Source: a virus
Reading direction: 5' to 3' (one strand)
DNA length: 28,084 nt
Virus record (IMG/VR): IMGVR_UViG_3300025264_000082
Span: 1-28,084 of that record
In this document: positions 2,536 to 24,064 of the stretch, piece by piece
Layout: each line of letters opens with the position of its first letter
Numbering within the stretch: position 1 is the first letter of the stretch
Translations under genes and position numbers: made by a program
The notes under the pieces: generated by a model
Seen by the model: the letters and a program-made list of their open reading frames with translations, nothing else
Databases searched by the model: none
Told to the model about the DNA's origin: nothing

Positions 2536-3570
2536 TCAATCTCCTAAGTTCTTGAATATGTGGGCGATAACGTCCACGGTCCATCCATTACCCAGCATTT
2601 TGTAGCGTTGGGTATTGGATACATGTGCAGTGTACCCTTCCGGTACTGTCTGCAATCTCTCGCACTCAAGCGGTGTTAGCTTACGCCATTTCAAATTATC
2701 TGTTGCAATTTTTGGTTCCCTGTTTCCACCAGTACAGGCGGTCAAGGTAGGTGACTTACCTTCTGGATGATAGACCCTCTTGATTAGGTCATGCCCCTTC
2801 AGGTCATGGCACATACCTTCATTGCTAAATACAAGTTGTCTTCTACTCTTTTCAAAATAGTTCTTCAAGGAAGATAGGTTTCCACCCTTGAAATAATTTG
2901 CATCTAGGCAGTGAGCCTTGTCCCTATCCACAAAGTTAAATACTATCTGACGTTTAGATTTCTCAAAGTAATCTTTAGGTCTGGGACCATTCTTATAGGT
3001 AGAGGTTACACAAAGAGCCTTGTCTCTGTCCACCAATCCATCCTCGATGATATCCTTGAGCATGATACCTCGATCCTCTGGCATGGTGAAGGGGATGTTA
3101 GTCCAGTACAATCTCTTCCTGTTCTGAGCGGATACAAGGTTGCTGTTAATCATGACAGGTTGGACACCCAGATACCTGCTAATAATATCTTGGCTCTCTT
3201 GCTTCATGCGTACATTTTCCAGGAGAAACCATTTAGGTTCTGTCTCATCCATGAGCCTGACAAACTCAAAGAATAATTTAGATCTGGGATCATCAAAATT
3301 TAAACGACTGCCAGCAAAGCTGAAGCCTTGGCATGGCGAGCCGCCTATTAATAGATCAATCTTGGGACGCAGGTGTGCATGTAACATTGAGTCGTTCCAG
3401 GTTAGATCCTTTACATCTCCTAGCTGGAAGATGTCTGGATAGTTAGCCTTGGATACCTTTATGGCAAACTTGTCTATCTCACAAGCATAGTATTTATCCA
3501 CAGATATCCCGGACTTTTCCAAAGCTATTCGACCATAAGACATGCCGTCAAAGAGACTTAGTACATTCAT
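2536..3570 (-). CDS. DNA (cytosine-5) methyltransferase, orphan
   Basis: This 344-residue enzyme should transfer a methyl group from S-adenosylmethionine to C5 of cytosine in DNA. Visible motifs are the cofactor loop LSLFDGMSYG (motif I, residues 4-13), GGSPCQGFSFAG with catalytic Cys80 (motif IV), ENV at 118-120 (motif VI), QNRKRLYW (motif VIII, 149-156), RKLTPLECERLQ (motif IX) and GNGWTVDV (motif X, 327-334). The LSLFDGMS form is that of phage enzymes related to Dnmt3. The recognition region carries two similar modules, at about 180-211 and 214-248, each VDRDKAxC...YFEKSxRQxVF. No restriction enzyme gene is nearby, so its likely role is protection of phage DNA from host restriction. Specificity cannot be read from sequence. 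Confidence 0.93.
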   Translation of the reverse strand: MNVLSLFDGMSYGRIALEKSGISVDKYYACEIDKFAIKVSKANYPDIFQLGDVKDLTWNDSMLHAHLRPKIDLLIGGSPCQGFSFAGSRLNFDDPRSKLFFEFVRLMDETEPKWFLLENVRMKQESQDIISRYLGVQPVMINSNLVSAQNRKRLYWTNIPFTMPEDRGIMLKDIIEDGLVDRDKALCVTSTYKNGPRPKDYFEKSKRQIVFNFVDRDKAHCLDANYFKGGNLSSLKNYFEKSRRQLVFSNEGMCHDLKGHDLIKRVYHPEGKSPTLTACTGGNREPKIATDNLKWRKLTPLECERLQTVPEGYTAHVSNTQRYKMLGNGWTVDVIAHIFKNLGD

Positions 3571-4483: not shown

Positions 4484-4818
4484 TACTCCATCTCCGTAAA
4501 GTAAAGGGTATCATCCTCGATTAATTCTTTTAAATGAGAATAGATAATATCCTTAATTGTTATGTAAGGTTCCCCATCTAAACCACTAGGTACGTTAAGG
4601 GTTAAAAGTATTTGATAAGTTTTTTCCATTACTCCATTTGTTATATCAGACTCCAGAACATCAACAAAATTATCATATTCATCCTTCTCCATCTCTTTCT
4701 CTGTTAAAGTTTCAGCTTCGAGTTCTGCCTTGTTTACATCCTTATGTAGTGCCAGCATTTTTTCTAAATGCTTTTCATAAAGAGTTTCATATAAAGCATC
4801 GTTGTATTGGTTACTCAT
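4483..4818 (-). CDS. Hypothetical two-part phage protein carrying the DEYDNF cassette
   Basis: This 111-residue protein has a helical N-terminal part (MSNQYNDALYETLYEKHLEK). Next comes the 16-residue cassette DEYDNFVDVLESDITN at about 47-62, shared exactly with the gene at 174-386. The C-terminal part (TYQILLTLNVPSGLDGEPYI) looks like a separate small phage domain. A Met right after the cassette (VMEKTYQ) could mark an older start, so the gene may be a fusion. AGGAG precedes the ATG. Function unknown. Confidence 0.7.
   Translation of the reverse strand: MSNQYNDALYETLYEKHLEKMLALHKDVNKAELEAETLTEKEMEKDEYDNFVDVLESDITNGVMEKTYQILLTLNVPSGLDGEPYITIKDIIYSHLKELIEDDTLYFTEME
4636..4683 (-). repeat. 48-bp exact repeat, copy 2 (in-frame peptide cassette)
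   Basis: Identical to 234-281 over 48 bases and read in the same frame as 16 codons in a different protein, about 4.4 kb away. Confidence 0.95.
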
Positions 4819-7350: not shown

Positions 7351-8094
7351 TTACTTCCCTTCCATTTTATAAATTTCCTTAAGCATATCGGTACGCTTCC
7401 CCAATATGTTAAGCTTGTGCTTCTTGGTTGTCAAGTTCTTCTTAAACTTTTCAAAGTCAAAGCTTACATTCTGTAATGCTTCCAGCATAGCCGATTGAAA
7501 CTGCTGTTTTGAATAGGTAGATTTATCTAACGGCGGGTTCTTTCCTATACCTTTTAATTGGGCCAATTGCCTGACCGTTCTAGATACATGATCTAGATGA
7601 TCAAGTGTCAGATTCCCTTCTTTAAATTGTTTACTATCTGACTGTAGTCTACCGCTTTTCTTATTAAATATAGACACTAGTACTCCATAGCTAATGTAAG
7701 GATGTTCTGCCTTAACCTTATTGTATATTTTATAAGGTGTCCTACCCATTACAGCCCAGTAGTTAGCAAAGTCTCCATCATCCCAGTTTCTCTGATTGGT
7801 ATTGATAGCTATCATGTTCTCGTACATATGAGATACCTGCATGACATAGTACGGGATGCCAAGGGCTGTTGCTGCTAGATACCTATGGTGTCCTTCACGG
7901 ATTTTACCGTACCTATCCACAAGGATTGGTACATCTTTCAAAGCCGAACCCTTATTCTTAAAGCTCTCGATCAGGTTCGCCAAGTGACCGCTCTTTACTA
8001 TTCGTTGAGTTTTATGTGGCCTAAGTTCACGGTATAGTGGTGACTTGTCTGTCACTTCATAGACAGTCCGTTCTACTTTTAATTGTGTAAACAT
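7351..8094 (-). CDS. ParB-fold (ParB/Srx-like) phage protein
   Basis: This 247-residue protein has a ParB-type N-terminal domain. It includes VPILVDRYGKIREGHHRYLA (56-74, with the family's GHHR phosphate-binding box), then ATALGIPYYVMQV. A family-typical NTNQRNW segment and a helical C-terminal half follow. Chromosomal ParB proteins bind CTP here, while phage relatives include nucleases and regulators. There is no ParA partner and no visible helix-turn-helix for centromere binding, so a partition role is unlikely. It is preceded by copy 2 of the alternative-hairpin leader, with AGGAG 8 bases from the ATG. Confidence 0.8.
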   Translation of the reverse strand: MFTQLKVERTVYEVTDKSPLYRELRPHKTQRIVKSGHLANLIESFKNKGSALKDVPILVDRYGKIREGHHRYLAATALGIPYYVMQVSHMYENMIAINTNQRNWDDGDFANYWAVMGRTPYKIYNKVKAEHPYISYGVLVSIFNKKSGRLQSDSKQFKEGNLTLDHLDHVSRTVRQLAQLKGIGKNPPLDKSTYSKQQFQSAMLEALQNVSFDFEKFKKNLTTKKHKLNILGKRTDMLKEIYKMEGK

Positions 8095-8357: not shown

Positions 8358-8516
8358 CTAATTGTTAACCCATTTCTCTGCAAACAGAGCCTTATCCAAC
8401 ATTGCATCTGCCTTGGCCTGTTCACCGGAATTTTCCAGAGCTGCGGCCATCTTCAGTCTGGAATCTATTGCATTAATTTCCAGAACTCGACCATCCTTTT
8501 GTATAAATGTAGTCAT
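8358..8516 (-). CDS. 52-aa helical micro-protein
   Basis: This short gene (start MTTFIQKDGRVLEINAIDSR) has AAGGAG seven bases upstream of the ATG and ends just before the next Shine-Dalgarno site. The product is an amphipathic helix-turn-helix-like hairpin rich in alanine (KMAAALENSGEQAKADAM). It lies just downstream of a copy of the near-palindrome (8561-8580). Function unknown. Confidence 0.65.
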   Translation of the reverse strand: MTTFIQKDGRVLEINAIDSRLKMAAALENSGEQAKADAMLDKALFAEKWVNN

Positions 8517-8560: not shown

Positions 8561-8580
8561 AAAGTGCATCGATACACTTT
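8561..8580. promoter_or_regulatory. 20-bp near-palindrome, copy 5 (operator candidate)
   Basis: The minus strand reads AAAGTGTATCGATGCACTTT, with a single mismatched pair around a central ATCGAT. It begins one base after the stop codon of the gene at 8581-9057 and lies in the leader of the next gene. The same 20-mer occurs at four other places, all in non-coding DNA; this copy is in inverted orientation. Confidence 0.7.
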
Positions 8581-9057
8581 TCAAACAAATCTGCCTGACC
8601 TTTTGGTAGTCTTACCATGAGGTCGAGACATCATGACAGGCTCACAGTATTCAACGCCGTCCACTGTGAACCTGAGAAATCCATCAAAGCTTTTACACTT
8701 TGCAAGCTGTGTACCTACGCTGCATCCGGCTTTATCAGGCCATTTAGATGATGTGTGTGGGTATCCGCTGAGTATTTCCCCTTGTTCATCTATACTCTTG
8801 GCAGAACTATGAATTGTTGACAATTTTTTAAGATCAGTTCTGATCTCTTCAGTGGCCCTAACACTTACAACATTGGTACTGAATGGGAGTTTACTTTTCC
8901 CGACAAAATTATCTATTTCTTTTTCAGCCTGTCTTTGTTTACCTTTCCATGTTTTACTTTCTTTTATTTGTTGTGTCTTGCCCCCAACACTTACAACGTT
9001 GGTGCTTAGAGGCAGTACACTGACAGGTGATTGACATGCACTTGTTTGTTTACTCAT
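8581..9057 (-). CDS. Hypothetical protein between two operator-like palindromes
   Basis: This 158-residue protein has a duplicated motif, LPLSTNVVSV (about 15-24) and LPFSTNVVSV (about 57-66), 42 residues apart. The DNA repeats are 8861-8889 and 8987-9015. The C-terminal half has SKWPDKAGCSVGTQLAKCKS and ends in a basic tail. The start at 9057 was chosen because AGGCAAGAAAGA lies upstream; an in-frame GTG at 9090 falls inside a palindrome and is less likely. A strong sigma-70 promoter (9119-9147) lies about 60 bases upstream. No helix-turn-helix is evident. As first gene of its transcript it may be an early takeover or regulatory protein, but that is inference. Confidence 0.65.
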   Translation of the reverse strand: MSKQTSACQSPVSVLPLSTNVVSVGGKTQQIKESKTWKGKQRQAEKEIDNFVGKSKLPFSTNVVSVRATEEIRTDLKKLSTIHSSAKSIDEQGEILSGYPHTSSKWPDKAGCSVGTQLAKCKSFDGFLRFTVDGVEYCEPVMMSRPHGKTTKRSGRFV

Positions 9058-9073
9058 TCTTTCTTGCCTTTCA

Positions 9074-9093
9074 AAAGTGTATCGATGCACTTT
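9074..9093. promoter_or_regulatory. 20-bp near-palindrome, copy 4 (operator candidate)
   Basis: The plus strand reads AAAGTGTATCGATGCACTTT. It lies between the predicted start of transcription near 9112 and the ATG at 9057, where a bound repressor would block elongation from the strong promoter upstream. Confidence 0.7.
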
Positions 9094-9118
9094 TCAGATC
9101 AGTCATTTAAACCAGCCT

Positions 9119-9147
9119 ACTATAAAGATAAAAATAAAGTTAGTCAA
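9119..9147 (-). promoter_or_regulatory. Strong sigma-70 promoter, leftward
   Basis: On the minus strand TTGACT (9147-9142) and TATAGT (9124-9119) are separated by 17 AT-rich bases. Each box matches consensus at 5 of 6 positions. It faces the gene at 8581-9057 and probably the long operon beyond, and it is the best-placed promoter for the left arm. Confidence 0.75.
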
Positions 9148-9289
9148 TAGGTTGAGCCTTTTTTCCCTTTACTATCAGCAGGTTACAGGCAATTCGATGT
9201 TACCCTGGCTGTGGGTACATATTCCATGCGTACACATTACATGATGTATTTCCAGGCTGTGCAGCTACGTTACATGTTCCATATATAAA
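9148..9289. other. Non-coding stretch upstream of leftward promoter
   Basis: I see no gene with a ribosome site on either strand here. The sequence holds weak imperfect repeats (ACAGCCtGGAAATAC and CACAGCCAGGG on the minus strand) but nothing I can name. Confidence 0.4.
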
Positions 9290-9350
9290 TCCGGTTAGAC
9301 CGGAAATTAAACAAAAAAAAAGGGTCTAGAACAATGTGTCCTAGACCCTT
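9290..9350 (-). terminator. Tandem intrinsic terminators of the 9355-10029 gene
   Basis: On the minus strand, AGGGTCTAG (9349-9341) pairs with CTAGACCCT (9329-9321) and is followed by nine U (9321-9313), a textbook Rho-independent terminator starting 5 bases after the stop codon. A second perfect hairpin, TCCGGT-TAG-ACCGGA (9304-9290), followed by UUUAUAU comes right after it. Confidence 0.88.
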
Positions 9351-9354
9351 AATA

Positions 9355-10029
9355 TTACGAACCTTGAGCGTTAAATTTGTCAGTTAATTCGTTATTCAAC
9401 CTGTCATAATTGTAAAGATAATTAATGACAGTATTCGACCAACCATCAACCTGTTTTTGCTCATCATCAGATAACTCTTTGTCAGTTAAGCCGTGAGTAT
9501 CGTTGAAAGTATCAATGCAAGAACTGTATATTTCAACAGATGAATTACTAAGGCAATTAAGCTTTTCTTGGGACTGTGATTTACGATCAAACCTAGCATC
9601 AAATACCTTATTCCATGATGTTAGTTTCTTACTGTCCCACGCTTTAATGATATCATCGGCGGCCATTTTATCGAATGCCTTTTGAACCTGCTTATCATTA
9701 ACATAACGTGAAAGCTTTTTAAACGTATCATCGGAAATAGAACCGCCGTTGGCTTTATCCTCAAATTCACGCATTGCCTTGTTGAAAGCTTTCAAGCCGA
9801 TTTTCTGCATATTCCTCATTTGAATATGAATTGCAACTCTAATACGTTTTAAGCTTTGAATAACCTTGCCATTGGCTTGGTTGTCCTTAGTTAAGCCGTT
9901 AGCCTGATCAACGTTCGCTGTCAATAAGGCGATTAAGAAAGCAATTGTTACCTTGCCACTAGCTGGCTTGGCAACCTGTTCGGTTGCTTTTGGCTTATTT
10001 GACGTTTTTTTAGCTGTTTTTGTAGTCAT
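9355..10029 (-). CDS. Hypothetical basic protein, first gene from the array promoter
   Basis: This 224-residue protein has a Lys/Thr/Ala-rich N-terminal tail (MTTKTAKKTSNKPKATEQVA), like nucleic-acid-binding tails. Two basic helical segments follow (VIQSLKRIRVAIHIQMRNMQ and the KAFNKAMREFEDKANGG region), then an acidic C-terminus. I do not recognise a family. It stands alone as a transcript unit: the promoter is at 10212-10239, the leader is about 175 bases and highly structured, and an intrinsic terminator lies directly after the stop. Such isolation, next to the control region, suggests a highly expressed early protein, perhaps DNA-binding. TTAGGGG is the ribosome site. Confidence 0.75.
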   Translation of the reverse strand: MTTKTAKKTSNKPKATEQVAKPASGKVTIAFLIALLTANVDQANGLTKDNQANGKVIQSLKRIRVAIHIQMRNMQKIGLKAFNKAMREFEDKANGGSISDDTFKKLSRYVNDKQVQKAFDKMAADDIIKAWDSKKLTSWNKVFDARFDRKSQSQEKLNCLSNSSVEIYSSCIDTFNDTHGLTDKELSDDEQKQVDGWSNTVINYLYNYDRLNNELTDKFNAQGS

Positions 10030-10053
10030 AACTATAAAATCCCCTAAGGAATT

Positions 10054-10103
10054 ATAACAGCTATCAACGCACTGTTCGAATAACAGCGTGTTCTAGCTGT
10101 TAT
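10054..10103 (-). promoter_or_regulatory. Long imperfect hairpin in the 5' leader
   Basis: A perfect 10-bp outer stem (ATAACAGCTA and TAGCTGTTAT) encloses an inner imperfect stem (AACgcaCTGTT / AACAGcgtGTT) with a short loop. It lies 25 bases before the ATG of the 9355-10029 gene, so it could control its translation or mRNA stability. Confidence 0.55.
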
Positions 10104-10124
10104 CTGATTTTACTGTCATCCTAT

Positions 10125-10212
10125 TTCGGTTAGGGTGTTAGGATGTAACCCTTATCAACATTGTTATTAACCCTAGAACAATCTAGGTAACTGATCTGAC
10201 AACCTAACCGAA
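10125..10212. repeat. Nested inverted repeats next to the leftward promoter
   Basis: Ten bases, TTCGGTTAGG (10125-10134), are the exact complement of CCTAACCGAA (10203-10212). Three further pairs follow after one mismatch. Inside lies a perfect small hairpin, CCTAGA-ACAA-TCTAGG (10172-10187). The outer right arm touches the -10 box, so it would be only partly present in RNA from that promoter. A tRNA fold was considered and does not fit. Confidence 0.55.
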
Positions 10213-10239
10213 GCATAACGAATTGAATAAGTATGTCAA
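10212..10239 (-). promoter_or_regulatory. Sigma-70 promoter for the 9355-10029 gene
   Basis: On the minus strand a perfect TTGACA (10239-10234) is followed after 16 bases by TATGCT (10217-10212). The near-palindrome array begins 14 bases upstream of the -35 box, a position suited to activation or repression. Confidence 0.65.
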
Positions 10240-10252
10240 TACATCCAACTGA

Positions 10253-10336
10253 AAAGTGTATCGATGCACTTTCCGAAGAGATCAAAAGTGTATCGATGCA
10301 CTTTCCGAATAGATCAAAAGTGTATCGATGCACTTT
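10253..10336. repeat. Three near-palindromes at exact 32-bp spacing (iteron or operator array)
   Basis: AAAGTGTATCGATGCACTTT occurs at 10253-10272, 10285-10304 and 10317-10336. The start-to-start distance is 32 bp in both cases, close to three helical turns, so bound proteins would line up on one face. The spacers are also conserved (CCGAA, then AGATCA or TAGATCA-like sequence), making this a 32-bp tandem repeat. Two single copies occur at 9074 and 8561. Confidence 0.85.
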
Positions 10337-10685
10337 CCGAAATAGGTCTAAACTCTATTCTTTACTCTCCCTTGTGAAGACATTACTCGACACCCTCCGC
10401 ATAAGCAATCCCCAAGTATCAAGCAAGTAATGACCAAGTAATGACCTAAGACCTGGAAAACTATACTGTACCGGCCAAATAAAGGTAACTATTAATAATG
10501 TATCCCCAAGTAGTTAGTAAAGATCGAGGCCCCGCCCCAAAAAAAATGGCTCATGTCTGATATATATATATATGACCTCCAATTATTTACTAAAAATTTA
10601 AGGAAAAGTCATCATTAAGATCATCTTGGTCGGATTTTAATAACTATCTAGATATATATTATATATATATATATATAAATACTTC
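10337..10685. other. Non-coding divergent region, candidate replication origin
   Basis: No supported gene lies here. It contains a tandem 11-bp repeat CAAGTAATGAC (10424-10434 and 10435-10445), two copies of ATCCCCAAGTA (10408-10418 and 10502-10512) and a GC block followed by eight A (near 10530-10548). TA tracts lie at about 10560-10572 and 10650-10677. Easily melted TA tracts beside a phased repeat array at the point where gene direction changes fit an origin or a control region; neither is proven. Confidence 0.4.
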
Positions 10686-10714
10686 TTGCCATTTTAAGAA
10701 TTATAGTGTATAAT
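10686..10714 (+). promoter_or_regulatory. Late-type promoter, terminase (leaderless)
   Basis: TTGCCA (10686-10691), 17 bases, then a perfect TATAAT (10709-10714). The stretch AATTATAGTG before the -10 box resembles AATTGTATGG in the two other rightward promoters. The expected start, seven bases after the -10 box, is the A of the ATG at 10721. Confidence 0.7.
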
Positions 10715-10720
10715 ATATAT

Positions 10721-12259
10721 ATGCTTAATGTACAAGAAAATTATCTGGAATCATTTATCAATCTTAAAGGACTCTTATCTCAAAAGATTAATCAAGAGTC
10801 TAATACAGATTTCTTGACCTTTGTCAGATTAGTAGCTCCTACCCTTGTTCCTGAATTCAAGATGGGAAATCATATAAAAATTATCTCTGATAATCTTAAG
10901 GATATGGAAGAAGGGAAAATAAAAAGACTGATGGTCTTTCTTCCACCTCGTTCCAGCAAGTCCGTGATATGTTCCAAGTTATTCCCTGCCTGGTACATAG
11001 GAAGAAATCCTAATCATGAAATTCTGACTGTCTCTCACAGTGATCAATTGTCTTCTGACTTTGGCAGGTCTGTCAGAGACATTGTCAACACAGAAGAATT
11101 CCAGAAAATATTTAGTGGTGTCTCTCTAAGAAGCGATGTCAGGGCAGCAGGTAAGTGGAAGACAAATCAGGGAGGAACCTACTATGCTGCTGGAGTGAGA
11201 TCCCAGATTGCAGGTCGGGGAGCGCATGTGGCAATCCTGGATGATGTCATGTCTGAAGAAGATGCTTTCTCAGATGCAGGTAGAAGGTATATCAAGGAGT
11301 GGTATCCGGCAGGTTTAAGGACTCGTATCATGCCTAACGGTGCCATTGTAATTATAAATACAAGGTTTCATTACGACGATCTGTGCGGATGGCTTCTAAA
11401 ACAGCAAGAGAACATGTCTGAGTATGAAACCATTCCTTGGAAAGTTATAAAAATTCCCGCCTGGTTGGATGAAGAAGCAGCAGAGTTACTGGATCTTCCC
11501 ATAGGAGGAAGTTACTTTCCCGAATGGAAATCGGAAGAAGTTCTCAGAACAGACGAGAACGAGATCAAGGCCAGTAATGGAAGTCGGTACTGGAACTCGC
11601 TCTATATGCAAGATCCTACCCCTGAAGAAGGAGGTTTAATTAAAAAACGATGGCTACAGAACTGGGAAGATCCTGAACCTCCCTCTTGTGATTTTGTCAT
11701 ACAGACCTTTGATACGGCTTTCTCAACCAAGACCACGGCGGATTTCAGTGTAATTCAAACATGGGGTATATTCTACCTGTATGATCAAGACGAGAGAGGA
11801 TATGAAAGTTATGCTCCGCATTTGATTTTACTGGGAAACATCAAGGGACGTTTTGAATACCCTGAACTAAGGAAACTGGCACAGAAGTTATATAACGAGC
11901 ATAGACCTGATGTCTGCATGATAGAGAAGAAAGCATCTGGACAATCTCTGATACAGGATATGCGAAGAGCAGGATTGCCTGTCATGGAATATCTTCCTGA
12001 CCGAGACAAGGTATCCAGAGTGTATGCGGCTTCGCCTATTATGGAATCAGGAAGATTATGGATACCCAAGAACAAGAAGTGGGCGGATGACCTGATAGAG
12101 GAACTAATCCGGTTTCCCAATGCAGCTCATGATGATCAGGTAGATGCTCTGACAATGGCGGTACACTATCTGAAAGAGTCCTGGCACCTTACTCACCCTG
12201 ATGATCCAGACCTTGAAGATGAACCCAGAGAAAATAAAAGTACTTATTGGACATTTTAA
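10721..12259 (+). CDS. terL: Terminase large subunit
   Basis: This protein, 512 residues from the ATG, is the ATP-driven DNA packaging motor and nuclease. The ATPase part has FLPPRSSKS (73-81, a Walker A variant), VAILDDVMSEEDA (about 170-182, Walker B and catalytic Glu) and the coupling segment NTRFHYDD. The RNase H-like nuclease has acidic residues at FDTAFS (about 330), MIEKKASG (about 400) and AAHDDQVDAL (about 468-477). An in-frame GTG at 10706 lies upstream of the -10 box of the promoter, so the ATG at 10721 is preferred. There is no Shine-Dalgarno site, consistent with a leaderless message. No small subunit gene is visible nearby. Confidence 0.93.
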   Translation: MLNVQENYLESFINLKGLLSQKINQESNTDFLTFVRLVAPTLVPEFKMGNHIKIISDNLKDMEEGKIKRLMVFLPPRSSKSVICSKLFPAWYIGRNPNHEILTVSHSDQLSSDFGRSVRDIVNTEEFQKIFSGVSLRSDVRAAGKWKTNQGGTYYAAGVRSQIAGRGAHVAILDDVMSEEDAFSDAGRRYIKEWYPAGLRTRIMPNGAIVIINTRFHYDDLCGWLLKQQENMSEYETIPWKVIKIPAWLDEEAAELLDLPIGGSYFPEWKSEEVLRTDENEIKASNGSRYWNSLYMQDPTPEEGGLIKKRWLQNWEDPEPPSCDFVIQTFDTAFSTKTTADFSVIQTWGIFYLYDQDERGYESYAPHLILLGNIKGRFEYPELRKLAQKLYNEHRPDVCMIEKKASGQSLIQDMRRAGLPVMEYLPDRDKVSRVYAASPIMESGRLWIPKNKKWADDLIEELIRFPNAAHDDQVDALTMAVHYLKESWHLTHPDDPDLEDEPRENKSTYWTF

Positions 12260-21021: not shown

Positions 21022-21702
21022 ATGGTTGCATATTCATATCTTAAAACGGATATTATTCAAACTTCTGAAAACGATTCTACCGAATTTGCCAGTGCAATTT
21101 CATTCTTTGTAGATCGTACAGAGTTACGCTTACTTAAAGATCTGGATGATGTTGGGTTAAACGAATATACCAGTATTACTTTTACTGTAAGTAATCCTGT
21201 TGTTAGTTTAAATGATAGAGTTCATATTGTTCGTAATGTGAACTATACAACCAGTGCGTCCAGTCTTAAGACAAGCCTTCTTAAACGTACTTATGAATAT
21301 GCTATAGATTACTGGCCTTATGTCAGTTCTTCAGTAGGGACACCCAGATATTATGCTAGAAAAAATAATACTTCTATCTATGTCGTACCCACTCCTGCTT
21401 CTACTTTATCAGGAGAGGTTCAAACAGTTTCTAGACCTTTACCTTTAGCTTCAGCTACAGGTACAAGTGCAACAACTCAAAATTATTTTAGTGACTATTG
21501 TTATGATGCTCTTTTTGCAGGATGTATGCAAGAAGCTACCATGTTTATGAAGGATTGGAATACCCTTCCGGTCTGGCAGACACAGTATCAAACAGCTATA
21601 GCAGCATTACGTAATCAGGCTAGAAGGACTAGACAGGATGATATGGCAGTTGCTGCTTCTCCTGCCGGTGGTCCCGATACCATAACACAGGGAGCAAGTT
21701 AA
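21022..21702 (+). CDS. Head-tail adaptor or tail tube-type protein
   Basis: This 226-residue protein has the helix-rich start (STEFASAISFFVDRTELRLL), a beta-rich centre with RTYEYAIDYWPYVSS and TPRYYARKNNTSIYVVPTPA, and a helical C-terminal part with MQEATMFMKDWNTLPVWQTQ. This matches, by eye, adaptor proteins of podoviruses that attach to the portal. The ATG follows two bases after the previous stop. The last base overlaps the next ATG. Confidence 0.65.
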   Translation: MVAYSYLKTDIIQTSENDSTEFASAISFFVDRTELRLLKDLDDVGLNEYTSITFTVSNPVVSLNDRVHIVRNVNYTTSASSLKTSLLKRTYEYAIDYWPYVSSSVGTPRYYARKNNTSIYVVPTPASTLSGEVQTVSRPLPLASATGTSATTQNYFSDYCYDALFAGCMQEATMFMKDWNTLPVWQTQYQTAIAALRNQARRTRQDDMAVAASPAGGPDTITQGAS

Positions 21703-21752
21703 TGTCAGCAAAAAGAAAAGGAACTAAAAAAGGTGTATCAGCTTTTATTGAT
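21702..21752 (+). repeat. 51-bp near-exact repeat, copy 1 (shared N-terminal tag)
   Basis: The first 17 codons (MSAKxKGTKKGVSAFID) match those at 23249-23299 in 50 of 51 bases. The rest of the two genes differs, apart from a similar KHGG-containing end. Confidence 0.92.
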
Positions 21753-22154
21753 AAAGCATTAGGTATATCTAAGAAGAAGAATATGCAAAAACCACTTCCA
21801 GATGATCCTAATATTGGTAATGTACCTAAAAAAAGAGGTGAGTTACGTGATCGGATTGAAGCAAAAACAGGAGAGCCTTTAGAAACAACATTAAAAAAGG
21901 CTGGTTTAGATAATGATGTTATAGAAAATATAATAAGACCTCATAAATCAACTATAACTGCTGCTCAAAATAGAGCTAGAATAAAAGCTTTACAAAATAA
22001 GAATAAAACGAAAAATAAAAAATCTAAGACATCTTCTGTTACAGGTATGTCAGCAACTTTTCCTAAACATGTAGGTGTAACAGCTAAAAAACATGGCGGT
22101 AAGATTACCTATAAAATGTCAGGCGGTCAGGTAGTAGATGCAGGATACGATTAA
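21702..22154 (+). CDS. Lysine-rich protein with shared N-terminal tag
   Basis: This 150-residue, very basic protein starts with the tag MSAKRKGTKKGVSAFID, also found at the start of the LysM protein. The middle is helical (GELRDRIEAKTGEPLETTLK) and the C-terminus reads AKKHGGKITYKMSGGQVVDA then GYD, similar to the LysM protein's end. Basic proteins of this type may be packaged with DNA inside the capsid. Its 3' end overlaps the next gene by 17 bases. Function unknown. Confidence 0.7.
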   Translation: MSAKRKGTKKGVSAFIDKALGISKKKNMQKPLPDDPNIGNVPKKRGELRDRIEAKTGEPLETTLKKAGLDNDVIENIIRPHKSTITAAQNRARIKALQNKNKTKNKKSKTSSVTGMSATFPKHVGVTAKKHGGKITYKMSGGQVVDAGYD

Positions 22155-23248: not shown

Positions 23249-23299
23249 ATGTCAGCAAAAGGAAAAGGAACTAAAAAAGGTGTATCAGCTTTTATTGAT
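23249..23299 (+). repeat. 51-bp near-exact repeat, copy 2 (shared N-terminal tag)
   Basis: Matches 21702-21752 in 50 of 51 bases; the one difference changes Arg to Gly at codon 5. Confidence 0.92.
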
Positions 23300-24064
23300 G
23301 CAGCAGTAGATACAACTAAAAAAGGTAAACCTAAAGTTAAAACAAATGGTAAACCTAAAGATTTTACATCTTATGATACACCTAAAGTTAAAGAAACATT
23401 AGAGGATATGGGAAAACCTCCTTCTCAAAGGAAGGTTGATGCTACAGGAACAAAGAGAAAGAAACCTGTTGTTGCAACAAAGACAAAGGGTCGTCCTAAA
23501 ATTCCTGTAACAACTCCTCCTGTTAAAAAAGGTAAAATGGGTAAAATTGCTAAAGGTATGGCAATAACAAGTCCTGCATGGTTAGGTCCACCTGCATATG
23601 TTGCATATAAGGAAATGAAACGTCCTAAATCTCATAAAGTTACATCAGGACAGAATCTTTCTAGTATTGCTAAAAAATATGGAACAACTATAAAAGCTAT
23701 TATGAAAGCTAATCCTAGTATCAAGAATGCGAATTTAATACGAATAGGACAAAATATTAAATTACCTTTCTTTGGACGAGGAAAAGATCCTTATAAAGGA
23801 ATGTCTAAATCAGAAATGGCAAAGCTTCATAAAGAAACTCAAGCAAGAAAAGCAAAAAGAGTTTCTAAAAAACAGACTGGAGGTAGAATGAGTAGAATAG
23901 GACTTTCTCCAGCAGAGATGGCAAGGGCTGGTACAATGTCTGAAGCTAAACGTAAACGGTATGTGAAAGGTGGTGGTAAAGTTGGTAAGAAGAAAGGCGG
24001 TACTGTTAATCGTAAACATGGCGGTCAAATAGGAACAGCCTATATAGCGAATTTATATGACTAA
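23249..24064 (+). CDS. LysM domain protein with shared N-terminal tag
   Basis: This 271-residue protein starts with the tag MSAKGKGTKKGVSAFID, then a Lys/Pro-rich linker, and has one LysM domain at about 128-174 (SHKVTSGQNLSSIAKKYGTT through IRIGQNIKLPF). LysM binds peptidoglycan sugar chains. No hydrolase domain follows; the rest is a basic, glycine-rich tail ending in NRKHGGQIGTAYIANLYD. It is therefore more likely a virion protein that contacts the cell wall during DNA entry than an endolysin. Three codons overlap the next gene. Confidence 0.8.
   Translation: MSAKGKGTKKGVSAFIDAAVDTTKKGKPKVKTNGKPKDFTSYDTPKVKETLEDMGKPPSQRKVDATGTKRKKPVVATKTKGRPKIPVTTPPVKKGKMGKIAKGMAITSPAWLGPPAYVAYKEMKRPKSHKVTSGQNLSSIAKKYGTTIKAIMKANPSIKNANLIRIGQNIKLPFFGRGKDPYKGMSKSEMAKLHKETQARKAKRVSKKQTGGRMSRIGLSPAEMARAGTMSEAKRKRYVKGGGKVGKKKGGTVNRKHGGQIGTAYIANLYD

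Follow-up and report, generated by a model that had tools for sequence, protein, structure and literature searches.

The early region of a marine tailed phage carries five copies of the 20-bp near-palindrome AAAGTGTATCGATGCACTTT. Their role as operators is well supported, and the gene whose leader holds three of them, gene 1, is the probable source of the protein that reads them. We consider it likely that the sites serve a gene-1-encoded dimeric regulator which acts on its own promoter and on a few leftward early operons and which has diversified in specificity across the phage family. The first-pass annotation of this DNA had suggested that a dimeric regulator controls the early leftward arm; sequence comparisons now lend this support through the conserved position of the sites, their replacement as a set, their spacing to promoters and their co-variation with gene 1. 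Beyond that suggestion, the recognition sequence differs between close relatives. A limited search of the open-access literature returned no earlier description of these sites.

Sites and genes of the left arm

The window, by which we mean the whole stretch analysed, is a 28,084-bp IMG/VR record, a fragment of a marine phage genome. It includes the gene for the large terminase-type protein TerL at 10706-12259, with structural genes running rightward and small early genes leftward, the latter encoding an HNH protein and a GP88 protein in addition to those in Table 1. Close relatives in IMG/VR number in the hundreds. The nearest annotated phages, 023Pt_psg01, the pelagiphages HTVC027P and HTVC023P, and DSL-LC04, are only about 41% identical in TerL; among annotated phages we found no DNA similar to the window, and no detectable relative of the 158-aa ORF or of the two gene-1 proteins tried.

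A scan of the window confirmed all five exact copies reported by the first-pass annotation and, with up to three mismatches allowed, returned no sixth; shuffled sequence gives none. One copy is inverted relative to the other four, and three form the units of a 32-bp tandem direct repeat (Table 1). Every copy carries the same mismatched T/G pair, as had been noticed before, and this pair is also present in the relative L014. As previously described, all five copies fall outside likely genes: they lie in the leaders of leftward genes, that of gene 1 holding the three copies of the array. Many copies inside coding sequences without promoter association, the pattern held beforehand to speak against a regulon, did not appear. 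The sites are also under constraint: between the window and L014, 80 of 80 site columns are identical, compared with 745 of 1142 other noncoding columns, gaps included. A lone exact 20-mer in an unrelated viral contig (L006, 516-535) was taken as chance.

Table 1 Sites, predicted promoters and genes of the left arm of the window.
Feature	Position	Strand	Remarks
Probable operator, copy 1	8561..8580	- (inverted)	45 bp before the start codon (ATG) of ORF 8358-8516; same place in L014 and L023
Probable operator, copy 2	9074..9093	+	centred at +35 from the -10 of the 9119 promoter; 17 bp before the 158-aa ORF's ATG (9057)
Probable operator, copy 3	10253..10272	+	array unit nearest the promoter; centred at -51 from the end of the gene-1 promoter -10
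Probable operator, copy 4	10285..10304	+	32 bp from copy 3
Probable operator, copy 5	10317..10336	+	32 bp from copy 4
Direct repeat array, 32-bp period	10252..10347	+	contains copies 3-5
Predicted gene-1 promoter, leftward	10212..10239	-	TTGACA-N16-TATGCT; kept in L014 and L023
Predicted promoter of next operon, leftward	9119..9147	-	TTGACT-N17-TATAGT; kept in L014 and L023
Gene 1, 224 aa	9355..10029	-	proposed site reader; no known family
Terminator-like hairpin with T tail	9320..9350	-	directly after gene 1
158-aa ORF	8581..9057	-	function unassigned; first gene behind copy 2
52-aa ORF	8358..8516	-	first gene behind copy 1
ParB-like protein	7351-8094		leftward arm
C5 DNA methylase	2536-3570		leftward arm

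Because a terminator-like hairpin follows it directly, gene 1 is probably transcribed on its own from the promoter beside the array, and the next operon from the 9119 promoter. The 158-aa ORF contains an internal repeat, LP[LF]STNVVSV, which occurs twice (8853-8895 and 8979-9021). Other repeats are found elsewhere in the window: a 72-bp repeat with 86% identity lies within two separate leftward genes (210-281 and 4612-4683); two gene starts are nearly alike over 74 bp (21702-21775 and 23249-23322, 89%), as if a gene start had been duplicated; and a large rightward ORF, open at the contig end (25698-28082), has many degenerate repeats and probably encodes a tail fibre.

Palindromes in the relatives

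We assembled 79 distinct regions of at least 1.3 kb lying 5' of terL in the fetched relatives and searched them for palindrome families, defined as palindromes repeated within the region with one copy 230-950 bp before terL. Such a family was found in 37 of the 79 upstream regions, a few of them weak (AT-rich or with two copies only), compared with 3 of 71 equally long stretches downstream of terL, where no copy was required at a set place and the test was thus easier to pass. The other 42 upstream regions have no palindrome family by these criteria. Relative to terL, the usual places of the sites are about -400, -1400 to -1650 and -2100, as in the window.

The position is shared and the sequence is not: about two dozen different palindromes occur among phages whose TerL proteins are 81-100% identical. 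The window and L014 have the same one, L023 has AAAGTATATCAGTATACTTT and L010 has AGTTCTACGTAGAACT; further examples are CTAGTAACGTTACTAG (L025), GGGTAGTACTACCC (L031), GGTATAACGTTATACC (L034), TGTGAAAATTTTCACA (L050), TTGTACCTAGGTACAA (L064), TCTAGAATTTCTAGA (L078), TTGCCATATGGCAA (L086), GATGCAACGTTGCATC (L113) and CTCGGACAGTCCGAG (L116). These sites are palindromes of 14-20 bp, present 2-6 times per genome in either orientation. In long relatives they are restricted to the left arm and are mostly intergenic, with 5 sites in the 59 kb of L050 and 6 in the 32 kb of L078, all six intergenic. A naive ORF set places 62 of 97 sites between genes, a count that is probably too low because probably spurious ORFs, such as 10233-10430, make sites appear coding.

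Different kinds of repeat occupy the region in some relatives. Upstream of terL in L035, L052, L062, L076, L077, L081, L084 and L088, the short palindromes are replaced by long (25-60 nt) hairpin-like repeats, rich in TACGTA/TAGTA and present 2-5 times in gene leaders. L072, L069 and L144 carry a six-copy iteron-like TGAGAATSATTCTCA array 200-450 bp upstream of terL, and L144 has a different leader palindrome as well.

Promoter spacing and co-variation with gene 1

Both promoters proposed by the first-pass annotation were recovered, each on the minus strand. The region contains 9 promoter-like matches compared with 10.2 in shuffled sequence, which is no excess, and the value of the two promoters therefore rests on their conservation: in L014 and L023 both keep their spacing to the sites. 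Copy 2 is centred at +35 in all three genomes, and copy 3 at -51 in the window and L023 and at -49 in L014.

The same geometry recurs more widely. In a sample of 105 sites from 27 genomes, strong leftward promoters, meaning those that match 10 or more of the 12 consensus bases, peak at two spacings: nine have the centre of a site 40-53 bp before the end of the -10 and nine have it 35-48 bp after, with about one expected in each class at random positions; these 18 cases are partly non-independent, as the window, L014 and L023 share both promoters. Hardly any strong leftward promoters fall between the two peaks, and rightward promoters scored against the same sites show no such peaks. Sites of the upstream group fall into two registers (near -41 and -51) separated by approximately one helical turn. 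This placement beside the -35 suggests an activator that touches polymerase, and the sites centred 35-48 bp beyond the -10 would suit repression, or a roadblock placed in the leader. Judged from spacing, the regulator may both activate and repress.

In the relatives we took gene 1 to be the first leftward ORF behind the terL-proximal site. Its products are 130-300 aa long with a pI anywhere from 4.6 to 9.8, and where tested they gave no convincing Pfam or PHROG match and no recognisable DNA-binding domain. Structure models are weak (pLDDT 52 for the window protein, 68 for that of L145), and the lack of a fold match for either in the libraries tried shows nothing either way. Profile comparison of gene-1 groups clearly related only L145 with L059 (93.5%), the others being too divergent to say, and a gene-1 search in viral contigs returned two close relatives only.

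The identity of the palindrome follows that of gene 1. Half-sites of homologous gene-1 pairs agree at a mean of 6.4 of 8 positions versus 3.5 for other pairs, a level reached by 0 of 5000 label permutations; the pairs are phylogenetically non-independent, and since gene 1 adjoins the sites, linkage contributes part of this co-variation. Palindromes are identical or almost identical between phages whose gene-1 proteins share at least 69% identity, identical or related at 47-57%, and mostly different at 30-39%. TerL identity has no such predictive value: palindromes differ between L009 and L010 (TerL 99.8% identical), L144 and L145 (99.6%), and L113 and L116 (98.6%). In L010, whose TerL is also 99.8% identical to that of the window, the segment 8562-10346 is replaced, comprising gene 1 and all the sites, and the breaks adjoin the outermost window sites. 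The genomes G006 and G005, which are mostly more than 90% identical gene by gene, differ in their palindromes. Overall identity between the two gene-1 proteins is 39%; it is about 20-33% in each of the three 40-column blocks up to column 120 and rises to 91% at the C-terminus, as though the part for recognition had been swapped while the tail stayed constant.

We wondered whether the palindromes might be operators read by something else, another phage gene or a host regulator, with gene 1 merely the first regulated gene and hypervariable for other reasons. We regard this as rather unlikely. It would fit the lack of a known DNA-binding domain in gene 1 and the variation of further small genes between close relatives, a few of which also differ between G006 and G005. 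However, gene 1 alone is found beside the sites throughout and tracks palindrome identity. The first-pass annotation had left open a regulator of phage or host origin, and of these the phage origin is favoured: the regulator is very probably encoded by the phage, with gene 1 as the probable gene. Action by a host regulator leaves unexplained the two dozen unrelated sequences seen at a single position in phages with TerL 81-100% identical, and we rejected it as the main reading because the palindrome differs between phages with near-identical TerL. The ParB-like protein was likewise rejected as the reader, its gene being 87% identical in nucleotides in L025, where the palindrome is unrelated. 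In L023 the palindrome has changed but the 158-aa ORF is still about 97% alike, and we set this ORF aside as well, an exclusion that is weak because the palindromes of the window and L023 are related.

Readings in which the sites are not operators fare less well. The array at 10253-10336 and the AT-rich DNA at 10560-10730 could form an iteron-type replication origin with gene 1 as its initiator and the two distal copies autoregulatory or spurious, and an iteron had been named as an alternative by the first-pass annotation. The repeats and AT-rich DNA are indeed present in the window, with a 32-bp period, TATATA tracts nearby and a cumulative GC skew minimum at about 10.5 kb, and some relatives have iteron-like arrays near terL. 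Yet the skew minimum coincides just as well with the point where the two transcription arms diverge, the array of L144 is additional to a separate leader palindrome, and the fixed spacing to leftward promoters points to transcription. This origin is improbable, because most relatives have one copy there and the others singly, in separate gene leaders up to about 9 kb away. RNA hairpins acting in leader transcripts, in translational or termination control, would account for the many copies located 20-30 bp ahead of a start codon within a transcribed leader, and perhaps for the long hairpin-like repeats that some relatives carry instead. But other copies lie upstream of the -35, outside that transcript, the mismatched pairs in the leftward RNA show no G.U bias (26 G.U, 33 A.C and 33 other), and 4 of the 5 window copies would have a C.A mismatch in that RNA; we consider such hairpins very improbable. 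That the sites adjoin terL, with a ParB-like gene in the same arm, is compatible with packaging (small terminase) or partition (parS-like) sites, a reading we find barely credible: the ParB-like gene does not track the palindrome, as L025 illustrates, and repeated placement in gene leaders at a fixed promoter spacing is not expected of such sites. A TerS-like ORF lies elsewhere in G006, far from gene 1, and the small terminase was rejected as the reader.

Under the preferred reading, regulation by gene 1, its product would bind the 20-bp near-palindrome as a two-fold symmetric target, presumably as a dimer. Gene 1 would control itself, because its own promoter adjoins the three-copy array, and its product would also act on the leftward early operons through the single leader copies at 9074 and 8561. 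Across the family, protein and sites would change together and give rise, at equivalent places in the genome, to many specificities unlike one another, diversified in the way of repressor/operator pairs in temperate phages.

Comparison with known phage regulators

The system shows two features of multi-site phage operator systems: several near-identical noncoding sites at promoters, and a candidate regulator that changes together with its sites. In its apparent workings it resembles the pairing of repressor and operator in heteroimmune temperate phages. In lambdoid immunity (CI/Cro, tripartite operators), near-palindromic operators are clustered by the regulator's own promoter, and heteroimmune variants swap regulator and operators as one block, as the regulator candidate and sites are replaced as one block between the window and L010. 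Lambda operators overlap promoters, whereas strong promoters that cover a site are very scarce here; a CI- or Cro-like HTH was not found in the tested proteins, nor was a lysogeny module.

A second parallel is offered by the cluster A mycobacteriophages, whose repressors and stoperators diverge together (PMC6550527) and whose stoperators are asymmetric and bound by monomers (PMC9283540). Common to both systems are a syntenic regulator gene, several sites in intergenic spaces and promoters, and joint divergence of motif and regulator (PMC6550527, PMC9283540). The cluster A sites are 13-bp and asymmetric, number more than 20 per genome mostly in one orientation, and are read by a monomer with a recognisable HTH (PMC6550527, PMC9283540). 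The sites described here do not have that form, being short palindromes, few per genome and in either orientation. Nor could the candidate reader be assigned to a known family: gene 1 gave no match in Pfam or PHROG, and its structure model is weak.

Cluster A phages are either temperate or of temperate descent, whereas no integrase or resolvase was found in the relatives studied here. Neither a tyrosine integrase nor a serine recombinase was detected in 11 records, which may be fragments and most of which are 46-59 kb long, and a limited search of a bacterial genome collection with two peptide patterns confirmed no TerL relatives. For these reasons we did not file the system as one of temperate immunity. 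That marine phages without detectable integration genes carry hyperdiverse regulators, lacking a recognisable DNA-binding family and forming dozens of immunity-like operator groups, is a possibility we put forward tentatively. If true, such phages would meet and cross-regulate in cells often enough for diversifying selection on specificity, whether by unrecognised lysogeny, carrier states or coinfection. Diverging operator specificities are a mark of superinfection immunity in temperate phages, and to find dozens of them at one conserved locus, with integration genes undetected, suggests that coinfecting phages regulate one another or that a lysogenic or carrier state has gone unnoticed. The sites also offer a handle on unassigned early genes, as every genome carries its own recognition site and protein-site pairs are directly testable; if our reading is true, the set amounts to a naturally occurring panel of orthogonal regulator-operator pairs.

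A lead on activation comes from a distant relative, HTVC027P, a lytic Pelagibacter phage of the HTVC023P type (TerL 42%). Here both leftward genes, gp33 and gp34, have GCTTGAA/AAGCTTGAAGCTT repeats immediately ahead of their TTGACA (L110 2800-3150; MN698241.1 ~17.4-17.7 kb), and the two genes are reported to form a separate expression cluster peaking at 6-9 h in a time course (PMC12753301). Repeats by the -35 of a separate cluster would fit activation, though this is only a lead: unlike the window sites, they are heptad direct repeats more than clean palindromes, and the similarity of gp33 is to the GP88-like genes found in the relatives, not to gene 1.
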